Positions 18,084-23,840 of a stretch of DNA of 39,826 bases are shown in pieces. The notes beneath the pieces are model-generated. The model made no database searches, was not told where the DNA came from, and saw nothing but the letters and a program-made list of their open reading frames with translations. Origin of the DNA: Candidatus Iainarchaeum sp. (GTDB taxonomy: Archaea > Iainarchaeota > Iainarchaeia > Iainarchaeales > Iainarchaeaceae); NCBI GenBank assembly GCA_016202305.1, contig JACQPB010000034.1:91262-131087 (forward strand), written 5' to 3'. The translations under genes were made by a program, and so were the position numbers. Numbering within the stretch: position 1 is the stretch's first letter; every line of letters begins with the position of its first letter.

Positions 18084-19232
18084 TCACACCCTCGGCTGGG
18101 ATATGCTTATGTAAAGTATGAGGAATCCGAGCGCAATCGGCATCACGACGACATAGGTCATTGCTATTAGCAGCGGCGGAAGGCCTATGTTCCCTATGGA
18201 AACTGGCGCATTGAGCGTCGCTCCGAGTATGCCCAGGAACACGGGCGCGACGATTGCTATGAATATATATATCACTCCGAAGAAGTTCATTTTTTCCGCG
18301 AAGTCCCTTATCCTTATCCTCATCTCGAAGCTCACGTCCTCCGCTATTTCACCCATGACTTCGGAGAGGTTGCCGCCGGTCTTGAGCGCCCTCACCACAT
18401 GCATGAGGGCATTCCTCAGCGATTTTGACTGCGTCCTCAGAGCGAAATGCCTGAGAGCGTCCTTCGCGTCCGTGCCTTCCTCTATCTCGTTCACTGTCCT
18501 CGAAAACTCCTCGCTCAGGGGCCCGTAATCCGCAACGGCAATGGTCTGTATGGTCTTGTAGAGCCCTATCCCTGCCTTGAGTTCCGTTGCCATGTGCCTG
18601 AGGGCGAACGGCAGCTCGACACCCATTTCCTCGCCGCGCCTCTGCGCATTGCTCCTCGGGATGAGGGTCATGACCCCGAAAGTGAAGAGGCCCGCAATCG
18701 CGGCCACCGCTACCGAGACAAGGGGCGTGGCCTCGTATAGGTAGCTGAGGATGGCGGTCAGGGAAAAGGCGAGGAGAGCTACAAGAAAAGTCGCGGATAT
18801 GGTGAGGGCGAGCCACTGGCTGAGGGAGAACTTCATGTTGGCCGAGTAAAGGTAATACCTGAGGTCGGACGCTATTGGCAGTTTCTTGAGCGTATTGGAA
18901 ATCGCTTCCATCGGCGTCTTGAAAATCAGGTATATCCTTCCAAGCGACCTCACGAGGGGAGACCTGAACTCCTGCAGGTCCTGCACTGTCTGCACGTCTA
19001 TTTTTTCCTGTGTGTTGTCCGTGATTATGCCTCGCAGCTCCCCGAGTTTTCCGCCTGCTTTCTCGAACTCGACGCCTTCGGCCACGTACTTGCTTTTCAT
19101 CCTCTCGACTATCTTCTCCACCTGGTCGGAGTCAACCTTCTGCGGCTGCTTATCGGCCTTTTCCGCGTCGGGCTCGCGCTTTCCCTTTTCCACGTTCTCT
19201 ATTTTCTTCTTGAGGGAGTCAAGCGAAGCCAT
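18084..19232 (-). CDS. type II/IV secretion platform protein (T2SF, TadB/FlaJ-like)
   Basis: 382 residues. A charged N-terminal extension of about 75 residues (Lys/Glu-rich, probably cytoplasmic) precedes membrane helices and a T2SF domain with 'ELPFALRHMATELKAGIGLY', 'ADYGPLSEEFSRTVNEIEEG' and 'RALKTGGNLSEVMGEIAEDV'. More helices close the protein. It overlaps the ATPase gene by 14 bp and abuts the second T2SF gene. It pairs with the 319-residue T2SF protein as the platform. Confidence 0.88.
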   Translation of the reverse strand: MASLDSLKKKIENVEKGKREPDAEKADKQPQKVDSDQVEKIVERMKSKYVAEGVEFEKAGGKLGELRGIITDNTQEKIDVQTVQDLQEFRSPLVRSLGRIYLIFKTPMEAISNTLKKLPIASDLRYYLYSANMKFSLSQWLALTISATFLVALLAFSLTAILSYLYEATPLVSVAVAAIAGLFTFGVMTLIPRSNAQRRGEEMGVELPFALRHMATELKAGIGLYKTIQTIAVADYGPLSEEFSRTVNEIEEGTDAKDALRHFALRTQSKSLRNALMHVVRALKTGGNLSEVMGEIAEDVSFEMRIRIRDFAEKMNFFGVIYIFIAIVAPVFLGILGATLNAPVSIGNIGLPPLLIAMTYVVVMPIALGFLILYISISQPRV

Positions 19233-22200
19233 TCAGACCGCCCTTGCCTATCATGTAATCACGTATTTTTTCCGCGACTTCTTTCGAAGCCATTTCTTTT
19301 TCCGAAACGAGCTTCTGGAGGAAGTCCGCCCTGCGCGATATTTCCTGCTCAATCTGCTTCCTCGTCATGCCGGTCATGTCCTGCAGCGTGACCATGTATT
19401 CCATTGCAGCATCCGTCCTCTTTAAGGTGTCGCTCAACGCGTCGCGCTTGAATATCATCTCGGTCTTGGCCTTTCCCCTGAGCGTGCCTGTTACCTCGGA
19501 GATTTCGGTTATCCTCCTTATCGTCCCGATTTTCTTGTCGTGCAGCCTATGCTGTATTATTATGAAGTTCAGGCCGGAGAGCATCACTTCCGGCACGTTC
19601 ATCGGCGGGCTCGTGACCCTCACAATCGTTTCCTCGGCGGAGTTCGCGTGCACCGTGCCGAGCGAGTTTCCGGCAACAAATCCCTGCACCACGAAATTAT
19701 GCGGGTTTTTCATCGTAAGCTCCTTCTCGTTCAGCGTGAGGTCGTAAACGTACCCGCTGTAAGGGTGCGAGTGTATCGCAACTATCTTGTCCCAGAAAAT
19801 GTCCGCTTCTCCCAGCGCCTTGAGGGTTAGTGAATCAATTCCCGCGGATTCGAACGCTTCCGCAAGCCGCTTTACCGCTTCCGTGCTTGGAATCCTTTCC
19901 TTTCTCTTGTAGAAGCTCACAAGCCCCTGCGTGATGCCTGCCCTTCGCGCTATTTCAGAATTGCTGAAACCCTTTTCCCTGGCCTTTGCAAGCAGCTCTA
20001 TTATCTCGTCATTGCATTCGATAAGGTCCACGTTGGTGTTTGCCTCAATAGCCTTGTCGAGAATCTCCTTCAGCTTCTTTCTTTTTTCTACCGACCTTAT
20101 GGGGAAAATACGGCTGAATTTCCTCGCCTGCTCAAGGCCGTAGACATACACCCTGAACCATCTGCTGTTGTACGCGCGTGACTCATATTTCCTCGAAACA
20201 ATCCCGTCAGTGAGAAGTGCGTGCCGGAAAAAGTCAATGTAATTCTCATTTGCGCATGTAAACACGAGCGCATTGTTTTGGGTGTCAACATAGCCTTCGG
20301 CGTCGAAAAACCCGGCAACGAATTCCCTCAGGCTTGCGGTGAAGTGGGAATTGGACATTTTCGCCTTCGCGCGGCTCCCGCTTGGGATGTCAAGAAGCTC
20401 CTGCACCTGTTTCGATTTTCCGGAGCCGCTCATGTGAGCCTCATAGCAGTTCTTTCCCGGCCTTGGCCCTACAATCGCAACATGCTCGGCGTGGATTTTT
20501 TCTTTCATGAACCTGATGAAATCCGGTATCCTTTCCTGCTCCTCGCTGTAAAGGCTGACTCTTCCCTCGCTGCAGGTGTACAGCTTTCCATTTTTTTCCC
20601 GTATCCTTTTCTTGTCGAGTATGCTTCCGTCGCCGTGCAGCATCCCGCTCCAGTACTCTGTTTCAGGCTCGCTGGCATTTGCATCCCTTATAAGTTTCCG
20701 CGGGGTGGCTATCCTTTGGCCTTCAGTCATCTTGTCCGCCCGCAGTTGCACTATTCCTTTTTCCAATGTATAAAACGGGTGGTTCGGGGTGCATGTGATT
20801 TCGCTGCCGGAGGCTAGCTTCACGTGATAGACGTTTCCGGTGTAAGGCCTTCTCATTGCCTGGACGATTTCTGATTTCGTGATTTTGCCGCTTTCGTCAA
20901 TGCTGTTTATGTATTCATTCTTTACGCTGCACATTTCCCAGTCGCCGTTCTTTTCAGCTCGGTTTTTTGACATCTGCCAGTCTACAAATTCCCCGATTTC
21001 GCGGATTCCGGTGGTCAGCGCAAGCTTGCTCTCGCCAGTGAGGCAGCCATCATGTCCCGTGTTGAACGCCGTGAAGAGCGTGAACGCCTCGTCATGCCTT
21101 ATCTCTCCAACTATTATCCTGTCGGGCCTCATTCTCAGCGCGTTTTTAGTGAGGATGTCCATGGTAAGTTCGCCCGTGCCTTCGAGGCCCGGCGGCCTTG
21201 CTTCCATCCTTATCCAGTGCTTGAGCGGCAGGTTCAGTTCTGCCGTGTCCTCTATTGTAATTATGCGCTCGCTTTCGGGTATGAAGCTCGCGAGCACGTT
21301 AAGGGTGGTGGTCTTTCCTGAGCCTGTGCCGCCGGAGATGAGTATGTTGGCCGGCCTCGTGTTCATGCCGTCCGTGCACATCCAGAGGAAAGCCGCGGCC
21401 TCGACGTTCATCGTGCCGTTCCTGATGAGGTCTATGACGTTGTATGGCTCGGCGCGGAACTTCCTTATGGTGAGGGTCGAGCCCTGGACAGTGGAGGGCG
21501 GCATCGTGGCGTTGACGCGGCTTCCGTCAGGCAGCCTCGCGTCGAGCAGGGGGCTGCTGATGTCCACGCGCCTCCCGACCTGCCTCGCAATCCTGTTGAT
21601 GAGGTCCTGGATTTCGTTGTCGGACGTGAACTCTATGTTGGTGACCATCATCTCATATTTCCTGTGGAAGACGTACACCGGCGCATTGGGCCCGATGACC
21701 ATTATTTCCTCGAGCTTGTTGTCCTGTATCAGGAAGTCTATCATGCCGTAGCCCACCATTTCCCTCACCACTGCGTCGGCATAGAACTCAAACTTGGTCT
21801 TGGGGATGTTGAGTTCGGGCGCGTTGCGTATTATTTCCATTATCCTTTGGTAGTAGACGTTACGCCTCTGCTCCGGGTCGCGTATCTTGTATGGCGTGAT
21901 GCTGATTATCCTTGTCGCGGCCTCCCTTATCGTGTTTATGATTGCCTTTTCGCCGCTGCCAGGCCTCACGACCGGAGTCCAGTAATAGAGCAGGGGCTGG
22001 CCTGGTATGCGGTATATCTTGATGTTGCCGTAGGCGTCAATCTCGATTTTTTCCCTGCTGCGCTCAAGCTCCTTCTCCATCTGCGTCTTCTGCTCCACAG
22101 GCACCTTTTCAGGGCTGGTGAAAATCACTTTCTCCTGCGGCGGCAGCTCCTTCTTCATCTCCTCGATTTTCTTCGAGGCCTCCTCCGCAATCTTGGCTTC

Positions 22201-22533
22201 CTCATCCGCGCCCTTCCGGCCCTTTATCCTGCTCTCAATGAGCCTGTCAATCTCTTCGAGGCCGGACTTGTCAAGCGCTGGCAGGCCCTCGAAAGGCTTT
22301 TCATCGCCGCTGGCAGGTTCCACGGCCTGTTTCACTGGCGGGGGCGCGGCGGGCTTTGCGGCGGCCTTTTCCCGTGGTGCAGCAGGTTTCTGCATGCCCG
22401 TGCCTGTGGTCTTCACTGAAATCGGCTCTTTCGCAGGCGGCTTATCCGGTGCCTTGGCCTTTTCCGGGGCGGGCTTCTTGTCTTCCTTTTTGCCCTTTAC
22501 CTTCGCAAAAAGGCTGTCCATGTAATTGGCCAT
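19219..22533 (-). CDS. type II/IV secretion (pilus assembly) ATPase with intein
   Basis: 1104 codons, of which residues 497-956 are an intein, leaving a 644-residue ATPase. The N-terminal about 150 residues are Lys/Pro/Ala-rich and low in complexity. The ATPase domain has Walker A 'SGGTGSGKTT' (about 400-409), Asp box 'TIEDTAELNLPLKHW', Walker B-like 'RIIVGEIRHDEAFTL' and, after splicing, the His-box 'TGHDGSLGTVHANSAEE'. It is the motor for pilus assembly and heads the operon ATPase-T2SF-T2SF-small pilin. CTTTTAAAAT lies about 32 bp upstream of ATG 22533. KlbA-type archaeal ATPases are known intein hosts. Confidence 0.93.
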   Translation of the reverse strand: MANYMDSLFAKVKGKKEDKKPAPEKAKAPDKPPAKEPISVKTTGTGMQKPAAPREKAAAKPAAPPPVKQAVEPASGDEKPFEGLPALDKSGLEEIDRLIESRIKGRKGADEEAKIAEEASKKIEEMKKELPPQEKVIFTSPEKVPVEQKTQMEKELERSREKIEIDAYGNIKIYRIPGQPLLYYWTPVVRPGSGEKAIINTIREAATRIISITPYKIRDPEQRRNVYYQRIMEIIRNAPELNIPKTKFEFYADAVVREMVGYGMIDFLIQDNKLEEIMVIGPNAPVYVFHRKYEMMVTNIEFTSDNEIQDLINRIARQVGRRVDISSPLLDARLPDGSRVNATMPPSTVQGSTLTIRKFRAEPYNVIDLIRNGTMNVEAAAFLWMCTDGMNTRPANILISGGTGSGKTTTLNVLASFIPESERIITIEDTAELNLPLKHWIRMEARPPGLEGTGELTMDILTKNALRMRPDRIIVGEIRHDEAFTLFTAFNTGHDGCLTGESKLALTTGIREIGEFVDWQMSKNRAEKNGDWEMCSVKNEYINSIDESGKITKSEIVQAMRRPYTGNVYHVKLASGSEITCTPNHPFYTLEKGIVQLRADKMTEGQRIATPRKLIRDANASEPETEYWSGMLHGDGSILDKKRIREKNGKLYTCSEGRVSLYSEEQERIPDFIRFMKEKIHAEHVAIVGPRPGKNCYEAHMSGSGKSKQVQELLDIPSGSRAKAKMSNSHFTASLREFVAGFFDAEGYVDTQNNALVFTCANENYIDFFRHALLTDGIVSRKYESRAYNSRWFRVYVYGLEQARKFSRIFPIRSVEKRKKLKEILDKAIEANTNVDLIECNDEIIELLAKAREKGFSNSEIARRAGITQGLVSFYKRKERIPSTEAVKRLAEAFESAGIDSLTLKALGEADIFWDKIVAIHSHPYSGYVYDLTLNEKELTMKNPHNFVVQGFVAGNSLGTVHANSAEETIVRVTSPPMNVPEVMLSGLNFIIIQHRLHDKKIGTIRRITEISEVTGTLRGKAKTEMIFKRDALSDTLKRTDAAMEYMVTLQDMTGMTRKQIEQEISRRADFLQKLVSEKEMASKEVAEKIRDYMIGKGGLNGFA
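19666..21045 (-). other. Intein with LAGLIDADG homing endonuclease and extra HTH segment
   Basis: 460 residues, host positions 497-956. Block A 'CLTGESKLAL' begins with Cys1; block B has 'TCTPNHPFYTL' (Thr582, His585); endonuclease blocks C and E are 'WSGMLHGDGSI' (Asp635) and 'FVAGFFDAEGYV' (Asp744, Glu746), both with acidic residues kept; block F 'YSGYVYDLTLN'; block G 'NFVVQGFVAGN' ending in Asn956, with Ser957 as +1. A helix-turn-helix 'NSEIARRAGITQGLVSFYKR' (about 857-877) lies between endonuclease and block F. The penultimate residue is Gly, not His. Splicing rejoins GHDG to SLGT at the His box. Confidence 0.9.
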
Positions 22534-22744
22534 AAAACCAGCTATCTACATGCATTTTCCATTTTAAAAGGGTTGCTGAGAGGAGTGCGCCGGCTTTGGC
22601 CCGCGGACGAAACCACGGCTTGCCGGAAAATTCCGGCGGCCGGTGGACGCATGAATAGGATGCAAGAGCGTGTCCGCGGCATAAAAAATGGCCAGGACAG
22701 GGGCAATGATGGTTGCACGGCCGCCTGTCAGCACGAAGGCTGGG
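22534..22744. other. Intergenic region upstream of the secretion ATPase
   Basis: Contains the ATPase promoter (CTTTTAAAAT on the minus strand, about 22561-22570) and a palindromic element GCCGGAA-AA-TTCCGGC at 22622-22637. Short frames on both strands have no start signals or family features, so no gene is called. The phased repeat array begins at 22745. Confidence 0.4.
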
Positions 22745-22909
22745 TTGGTGACATCGGGGCGTGAACTGGTGACATGAGAAACATAGCCGGTGGCAAGTCA
22801 AGGGCTCTGGTGACAAAAAAGCGGCGCTGGTGACAAGCAAAACCGAGCTGGTGACACGGAAATGTGCGCTGGTGACAAAAAAGGCCTATTTCAGGGAGCG
22901 CTGGTGACA
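22745..22909 (+). repeat. Helically phased array of eight 9-bp direct repeats (CTGGTGACA)
   Basis: Copies start at 22745 (TTGGTGACA), 22766, 22787 (CCGGTGGCA), 22807, 22827, 22848, 22869 and 22901; the six others are exact CTGGTGACA. Start-to-start distances are 21, 21, 20, 20, 21, 21 and 32 bp, that is two helical turns, then three. The last copies are preceded by GCG or GAG and mostly followed by A. The mixture of 20 and 21 rules out a codon repeat. The array is almost equidistant between the ATPase start (22533) and the divergent pilin start (23115). It could be a multi-site operator or iteron-type element. Confidence 0.85.
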
Positions 22910-22912
22910 AAT

Positions 22913-22935
22913 CTGCTATTATATAATATGATGAA
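22913..22935. promoter_or_regulatory. AT-rich block next to the phased repeats
   Basis: A run including CTATTATATAATATG starts a few bases after the last 9-bp repeat. It could be a bidirectional TATA element or a melting region of the kind found next to iterons. No gene begins at a suitable distance on either strand; the pilin at 23115 has its own closer TATA box (TTTAATTA, 23083-23090). Confidence 0.45.
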
Positions 22936-23114
22936 TTGTTTCCTGTTAACGTGCAGCGGAAAAAAAGCCGTGAAAAGAGGCCAATTATTCTCCCGCTCTA
23001 CACCGCGATTTTTCAACGCTCCAACAGCACGGAAACAAGGAAGCAAAACGGAATTTTTCACGTTTTTTTGGGTGTGTAAAGATTTAATTAGGGAAAAGCC
23101 CATTCTGTTCTCTT

Positions 23115-23831
23115 ATGAAACCAAAAGCACAAGGTGCTCTCGAATACCTCCTTTTGATTGGCGGGGCAGTGGTAGTCGGCTCGATAGTGATAGTGCTCCT
23201 GCTAGGCTCTGCAAGTTCCGGGAAAACTTCTGCGATGTCAAGACTTGATTTGATTGAACAGAAGAAGGCTGAAGCGGGGGCGAATTTGAGCGGGCTTATC
23301 CTGAACGGTTTTTTCGAGCAGGGGTCAGGTACAGGTGCTACAGACTGGCCTTCGGATACTACTTGTGGCGATTTGTGCTTTTACCGCAGAAACGATCCCG
23401 GCTATTCAATCCCTGGCGCAGGGTACAGCTGGTATATGTTCTCGCCTGCCGGAAGCGGCTGGGACAACACGATGCAACAGAGGGTTAGCGGCATAAATCA
23501 GCCTTCAAAAACATTTAATCTCGAGTTCAAATACCTTTGCAGGACTGCAACATCCCCAAATGGCCTTGGCTGGATCATGCGCTTTAGGGACCACGCAAGG
23601 CCGTGCTGCGAAGATGTTTATTCCACTTCTGGCATTGCAACAAAATCCGACGGTTCGACGGAAACAAAAAGTATGACCAATTTCCTTTGCGCGGCAAATG
23701 AATCCGGGACATTCAGGGTCACCCTTACGACCCTTGCCAATGCGGGAAGTGATTACTATTGGGATTTGTGGGCTTATTCTGGTCACAGTTCAAATCAGGA
23801 GCTTATTGTGGACAACTTCAAGGTCAGCTGA
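23115..23831 (+). CDS. pilin with class III signal and carbohydrate-binding-like ectodomain
   Basis: 238 residues. 'KPKAQGALEYLLLIGGAVVV' has Gln+1 and Glu+5 (cleavage after Lys-Ala). After the helix and a Ser/Lys-rich linker, the ectodomain begins 'GLILNGFFEQGSGTG' and ends 'NQELIVDNFKVS', bracketing Trp/Tyr-rich strands in a CBM4/9-like jelly-roll layout; six cysteines are spread through it. TTTAATTA about 28 bp upstream indicates a leaderless mRNA. It is divergent from the ATPase operon across the repeat array and resembles the pilin at 15828 in design, though the ectodomains are not closely similar by eye. Confidence 0.78.
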   Translation: MKPKAQGALEYLLLIGGAVVVGSIVIVLLLGSASSGKTSAMSRLDLIEQKKAEAGANLSGLILNGFFEQGSGTGATDWPSDTTCGDLCFYRRNDPGYSIPGAGYSWYMFSPAGSGWDNTMQQRVSGINQPSKTFNLEFKYLCRTATSPNGLGWIMRFRDHARPCCEDVYSTSGIATKSDGSTETKSMTNFLCAANESGTFRVTLTTLANAGSDYYWDLWAYSGHSSNQELIVDNFKVS

Positions 23832-23840
23832 TTTAGTGGG

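Follow-up and report, generated by a model that had tools for sequence, protein, structure and literature searches.

An array of repeated 9-bp words in the window (the whole stretch of DNA analyzed here, 39,826 nucleotides from Candidatus Iainarchaeum sp.) is part of a non-coding paralogous element of approximately 300 bases that lies at four unrelated chromosomal places in one genome. The element is probably the remnant of a mobile element and not a pilus switch. We tentatively favor a reading, which is unproven, in which initiator molecules bind the array as one part of an iteron-type replication-origin module. The module would have come from a mobile replicon of this archaeal lineage (a plasmid, a virus or a satellite), and the four copies dispersed in the chromosome would be what persists of it. 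Much is known of iteron origins in bacterial plasmids and phages, and little is documented in archaea; if the reading is true, the four-copy non-coding origin-like module in this archaeal chromosome would mark an undescribed extrachromosomal partner.

In the window copy, we found eight 9-bp words between positions 22745 and 22909, all on the plus strand and six of the eight exact copies of CTGGTGACA, with an AT-rich stretch next to them. The start-to-start distances of the words are 21, 21, 20, 20, 21, 21 and 32 bp.

22745..22753, plus strand: word 1, TTGGTGACA, inexact
22766..22774, plus strand: word 2, CTGGTGACA, exact
22787..22795, plus strand: word 3, CCGGTGGCA, two mismatches
22807..22815, plus strand: word 4, exact
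22827..22835, plus strand: word 5, exact
22848..22856, plus strand: word 6, exact
22869..22877, plus strand: word 7, exact; 32 bp to the next word, as in all four copies
22901..22909, plus strand: word 8, exact; last of the array

Coordinates and sequence agree fully with the preliminary description of this region in the number of words, their exactness, their spacing and the AT-rich neighbor. Within 230 bp there are seven words that deviate from CTGGTGACA at one position or none, as compared to a maximum of two in 20,000 mononucleotide shuffles. The words had also been said to face the same side of the helix, and their phase coherence bears this out (R of 0.87 at 10.5 bp and 0.95 at 10.4 bp). 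Across the whole genome, the word is not rare: exact CTGGTGACA occurs 20 times, 13 times within the four elements and seven times as scattered singles, and a reversed control word occurs four times. Only two open reading frames of at least 80 aa touch the array (22442-22840 on the minus strand and 22862-23248 on the plus strand, the latter with no Pfam match); each overlaps part of it, and no convincing gene traverses it. A coded repeat, which the preliminary description had already discounted, was rejected because of the non-triplet spacing, the lack of any frame that spans the array and the block indels between copies.

When we searched the intergenic region of the window against its own genome (1.04 Mb in 56 contigs), we found three further sites with 85-87% identity over 230-250 bp. 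The similarity between copies runs from the left words to approximately position 23042, and the array is thus part of a longer element.

22745..23042 (contig C16), plus strand: whole repeated element, window copy; the right edge is where similarity is lost and the left edge is uncertain
C23:29129-29370, plus strand: element copy, match to the window region
C56:3347-3577, plus strand: element copy, match to the window region
C17:10386-10614, minus strand: element copy, match to the window region

The C16, C23, C56 and C17 copies have eight, six, eight and nine words, respectively, spaced mostly by 20-23 bp apart from one gap of 44 bp in C23; the last gap measures exactly 32 bp in every copy. 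One layout is common to them: the array is followed by AATCTGCTAT, then by the AT-rich TATAATATGATGA stretch and then by a conserved segment of approximately 110 bp. When 28 units were aligned, T-G-G-T-G-A/G-C-A was invariant or nearly so and was followed by an A-rich linker. The spacing that the copies have in common is inherited, so it is not independent evidence. Over the last three homologous units, 6 of 27 sites vary in the words and 7 of 35 in the linkers; the words are not better conserved than the linkers since the copies diverged, and no selection on them is visible. The last three words of the window copy carry private changes at 0 of 27 positions as compared to 4 of 35 in the linkers, which are too few to conclude from. 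Because word variation equals linker variation, the chromosomal copies may be relics.

To the right of the array, the window copy contains the following features.

22916-22930: AT-rich block CTATTATATAATATG
22916..22940, plus strand: CTATTATATAATATGATGAATTGTT, AT-rich (16% GC); a candidate for the unwinding element, or else for a TATA box
22936..23046, plus strand: conserved imperfect stem-loop segment of approximately 110 bp, about 92% alike with C17, C23 and C56
22936-22954 and 23027-23042, plus strand: stem-loop arms TTGTTTCCTGTTAACGTGC and GCACGGAAACAAGGAA, from pairing compared with shuffles

The AT-rich stretch is kept in all four copies save for indels of 2 bp and 4 bp. The ends of the conserved segment form an imperfect inverted repeat (TTTCCTGTTTAACGTGC / GCACGGAAACAAGGAAA), and the pairing of its arms has p values of 0.001-0.003 against mononucleotide shuffles. 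Folded as single-stranded DNA, the segment has z values of –3.1 in the window copy and –2.2, –1.2 (C56) and –3.3 in the others, a modest stem-loop that folds better than shuffles in three copies and less clearly in C56. We detected no base-pair covariation in the segment across copies and no Rfam match to the element, and the RNA folds of the C56 block are near those of shuffles (z of –0.46 on the plus strand and –1.75 on the other strand), which led us to reject a structured RNA.

Iteron origins contain two to seven repeats, each 17-22 bp long, that lie in helical phase beside an AT-rich element and are bound cooperatively by winged-helix Rep proteins (PMC4980987, PMC5043065). The four copies have six to nine direct repeats of this kind, in helical phase, and an AT-rich candidate unwinding element that adjoins them in every copy. 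The element resembles bacterial iteron plasmids such as RK2, F, P1, R6K and pSC101, which have a winged-helix Rep and phased direct repeats of approximately 20-22 bp by an AT-rich opening element (PMC4980987, PMC5043065); unlike them, it has no adjacent rep gene, is present in four chromosomal copies and has an archaeal host. The Sulfolobus plasmid pRN1 has as its essential origin a stem-loop of approximately 100 bp, encodes a Rep with a winged-helix domain and is described as lacking iterons (PMC4234260). A stem-loop of similar length is predicted here; however, in contrast to pRN1, the element has an iteron-like array and a weaker stem-loop whose sequence is conserved between copies. No primase-helicase gene was recognized beside the copies.

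By analogy with these systems, several winged-helix initiator molecules would bind cooperatively on one face of the helix, at the core T-G-G-T-G-A-C-A of each ~21-bp unit. Their assembly would bend the DNA and strain the adjacent AT-rich stretch until it opens, and the ~110-bp segment could then extrude as a stem-loop that serves as a loading or priming site. The chromosomal copies would be non-autonomous or degenerate descendants of such a module. Among the open reading frames that we scanned for domains, there was no initiator gene beside any copy; in the genome as a whole, HTH_36 gave no match above the cut-off and PHROG 270 gave weak matches only, in a search that covered these two families and an assembly that is approximately 80% complete. 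Weak matches to winged-helix proteins lie at C22:20.5 kb, C17:5.3 kb and C30:1 kb.

Arrays of at least three TGGTGACA, the core of the word, are widespread in the sequences scanned, among the matches listed. Arrays with all spacings in multiples of three were set aside as likely coding repeats. Phased arrays of TGGTGACA in no fixed reading frame were found in 92 of the first 120 viral contigs among the matches listed; a complete scan with the reversed control word gave 2 of 49. Many of the 92 are related prophages, and the reading frames over their arrays reduce to 22 representatives at 70% identity, which with four others make 26. Among these, PHROG 270 (replication initiation protein) is matched by 16, PHROG 391 (O-like) by 13 and Pfam HTH_36 by 14, and relatives of one array region are annotated as 'replication protein O' in named phages, e.g. 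Sf101 and SEN22. In phased arrays, TGGTGACA thus appears to be mostly the iteron of phage O-like initiator genes. End repeats of IS21, Tn7 or CAST elements were rejected for these widespread arrays, since the overlapping frames are replication initiators. At spacings of 20-24 bp, TGGTGACA recurs inside diverse phage replication-initiator genes (L162, L042, L087, L132, L239, L387 and others); the survey suggests that HTH_36/O-like initiators use it repeatedly as their iteron word, which makes it handy for locating such origins.

The archaeal and phage arrays have the core word and a spacing of 20-24 bp in common. In contrast to the archaeal array, which is non-coding, has no inverted half and is spanned by no reading frame in the window, the phage arrays lie inside the initiator gene and the iteron often has a TGTCAC half. 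Beyond the 8-mer, we found no conservation across TGGTGACA arrays elsewhere. The archaeal word was the seed of this survey, which therefore supports the view that the array works like an iteron array and does not support common descent. Lambda-O systems load bacterial DnaB, and archaea, to our knowledge, lack DnaB, so the common word may reflect convergence. Why an archaeal element and phage O-like initiators would have one repeat word in common is a question that these data raise. One speculative reading, which we regard as quite improbable, is that the element is a mobile, protein-free 'origin cassette' made of iterons, opening element and stem-loop only, which is non-autonomous, spreads by exploiting the initiator of a virus or plasmid or by titrating it as a decoy, and uses the TGGTGACA word as phage O-like initiators do, across the domain boundary.

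The preliminary description had placed the array among pilus genes. The window copy is indeed flanked by a T2SSE pilus ATPase gene (minus strand) and by the gene of a class III signal peptide protein, the pilin (plus strand), which is followed by thrS.

22534..23840, no strand: interval from pilus ATPase start to thrS stop, including the element and the pilin; 1307 bp, approximately 155 bp in G001, G004 and G005

The other copies have different neighbors: the C17 copy lies between rpl12 and an opposite-facing lon-like gene (Lon C-terminal domain), the C23 copy adjoins a PAC2-family gene and the C56 copy adjoins a gene without a Pfam family, so that three of the four neighborhoods are unrelated to pili. 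In G001, G004 and G005, the thrS-T2SSE interval of approximately 155 bp contains neither array nor pilin. The pilin has a TATA-like box of its own (TTTAATTA, 23083-23090, read from the sequence), outside the repeated element. The proposed link to the pilus genes is not supported by these contexts or by synteny in the relatives, a conserved pilus operator was rejected on these grounds, and the pilus setting is incidental. The gap at the C23 site measures 1434 bp; among five relatives, it is 29-340 bp in four and 1264 bp in the fifth, G006. The gap at the C17 site is 766 bp here and short in G003, and in other relatives lon and rpl12 stand in tandem. At the three sites with readable synteny, the element therefore occupies enlarged, mostly lineage-specific intergenic DNA. 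The long gap of G006 at the C23 site counts against the iteron-origin reading, as does our inability to define an insertion junction or a target duplication. The orientation of the lon-like gene relative to rpl12 flips between genera of one family, being convergent in G003 and the window genome and tandem in G007 and G002 (L318 versus L315 and L320).

The related-genome search called for in the preliminary description was run, and word pair, element and array were absent from relatives. The exact word pair does not occur among 52 relatives, the triple array does not occur in 86 other genomes of the phylum, and blastn found the element in none of the relatives beyond one 24-base match (G036) that we took as noise. 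A sequence profile of the block, run on 75 genomes of the order, recovered only its own four copies, with E of 0.004 for the next match down, and matches of the R1 model in other genomes of the order, with E of 0.004-0.009, were treated as noise. The block has no match in phage and plasmid records, and its patterns have none in IMG/VR apart from short ones; a 16-base pattern is found in 21 viral contigs, which match over 16-22 bases only. Transfer from a known phage or plasmid was rejected on these grounds. A literature search on the repeat word itself found nothing relevant. Absence from close relatives, which the preliminary description had named among the findings that would refute it, removes a conserved host operator and leaves a lineage-specific mobile element in place. 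The preliminary description had offered a cooperative operator or an iteron-type element; the iteron part gains from the four like-built paralogous copies and from a core word that elsewhere is mainly a phage-initiator iteron, and the operator part, as a conserved host element, falls away.

The main rival to an iteron-type origin is a non-autonomous transposable element (MITE-like) or a transposon end, in which the ~21-bp repeats would be bound by transposase, like those of Tn7- or IS21-type ends, and either the stem-loop block or the TTATGTAGAAGT repeats would be the ends. We consider this unlikely. In its favor, there are four dispersed intergenic copies in one genome and none in relatives, the gaps are enlarged at three sites, and the arms of the block look like imperfect terminal inverted repeats. 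The C17 and C23 copies, moreover, are alike over approximately 500 bp, reaching further upstream and including TTATGTAGAAGT/ACTTCTACATAA inverted repeats, and C17 has a further ACTTCTACATAA copy just past its right end. The element is like prokaryotic MITEs in being short, dispersed, non-coding, multi-copy, intergenic and lineage-specific; however, it has no defined terminal inverted repeats, target duplication or parent insertion sequence and has a phased array that resembles binding sites. The similarity between copies has no clean left end and extends 140 bp past the last word in all four, the TTATGTAGAAGT repeats are absent around the window copy and at the right end of C23 and C56, and neither a target duplication nor a cognate transposase was identified; the relatives, which are too diverged, gave no empty site. 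Phased arrays of the word elsewhere lie mostly in initiator genes, in a survey dominated by viral contigs.

An operator or enhancer with multiple sites, controlling a promoter at TATAATAT for a small non-coding RNA or for the downstream gene (the pilin in the window), would fit the AT-rich stretch, which lies a few bases past the last word and resembles a TATA box, and plus-strand reading frames start within approximately 70 bp of the block end in C16 and C23. In C17 and C56, however, no gene follows closely in that orientation. The separate TATA-like box of the pilin and the RNA folds, covariation and Rfam results given above also speak against this reading, which we regard as improbable. Several similar, non-coding, helically phased sites per chromosome would also be expected of a parS- or ORB-like site for chromosome segregation, replication or organization. 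That the element is such a site is very unlikely, as it has no match in relatives from the genus, family, order or phylum, Orc1/Cdc6 (Cdc6_C) matches lie at C22:50285 and C23:60366 and none is beside a copy, and GC skew has no clear change at 22.8 kb. A chromosomal origin of the ORB / Orc1-Cdc6 type was rejected for the same reasons.

The TTATGTAGAAGT / CTACATAATAGGTTTTTGTCCGG repeats recur in this genome at L036 4850-5420, L035 4920-5010, L337, L334, L342 and L344, and in C17 they flank the array element on both sides. On C28, TTATGTAGAAGT inverted repeats adjoin the end of a reading frame that looks transposase-like by eye. The inverted repeats of TTATGTAGAAGT that lie close to C17 and C23 may belong to a separate family of mobile elements, and the TTATGTAGAAGT / CTACATAATAGGTTTTTGTCCGG repeats are possibly the ends of another mobile element.

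The pilus ATPase gene (19219-22533, minus strand) contains an intein with LAGLIDADG and HTH_3 domains. Upstream of its start, at 22563-22616 of the window, we observed a second dispersed motif, TTTAAAAGGGTTGCTGAGAGGA..GCTTTGG, which recurs at C18:38655 and C23:9040 and in shorter form at C31:140. The motif resembles a TATA box with a conserved start region and is perhaps a shared promoter or a small RNA.
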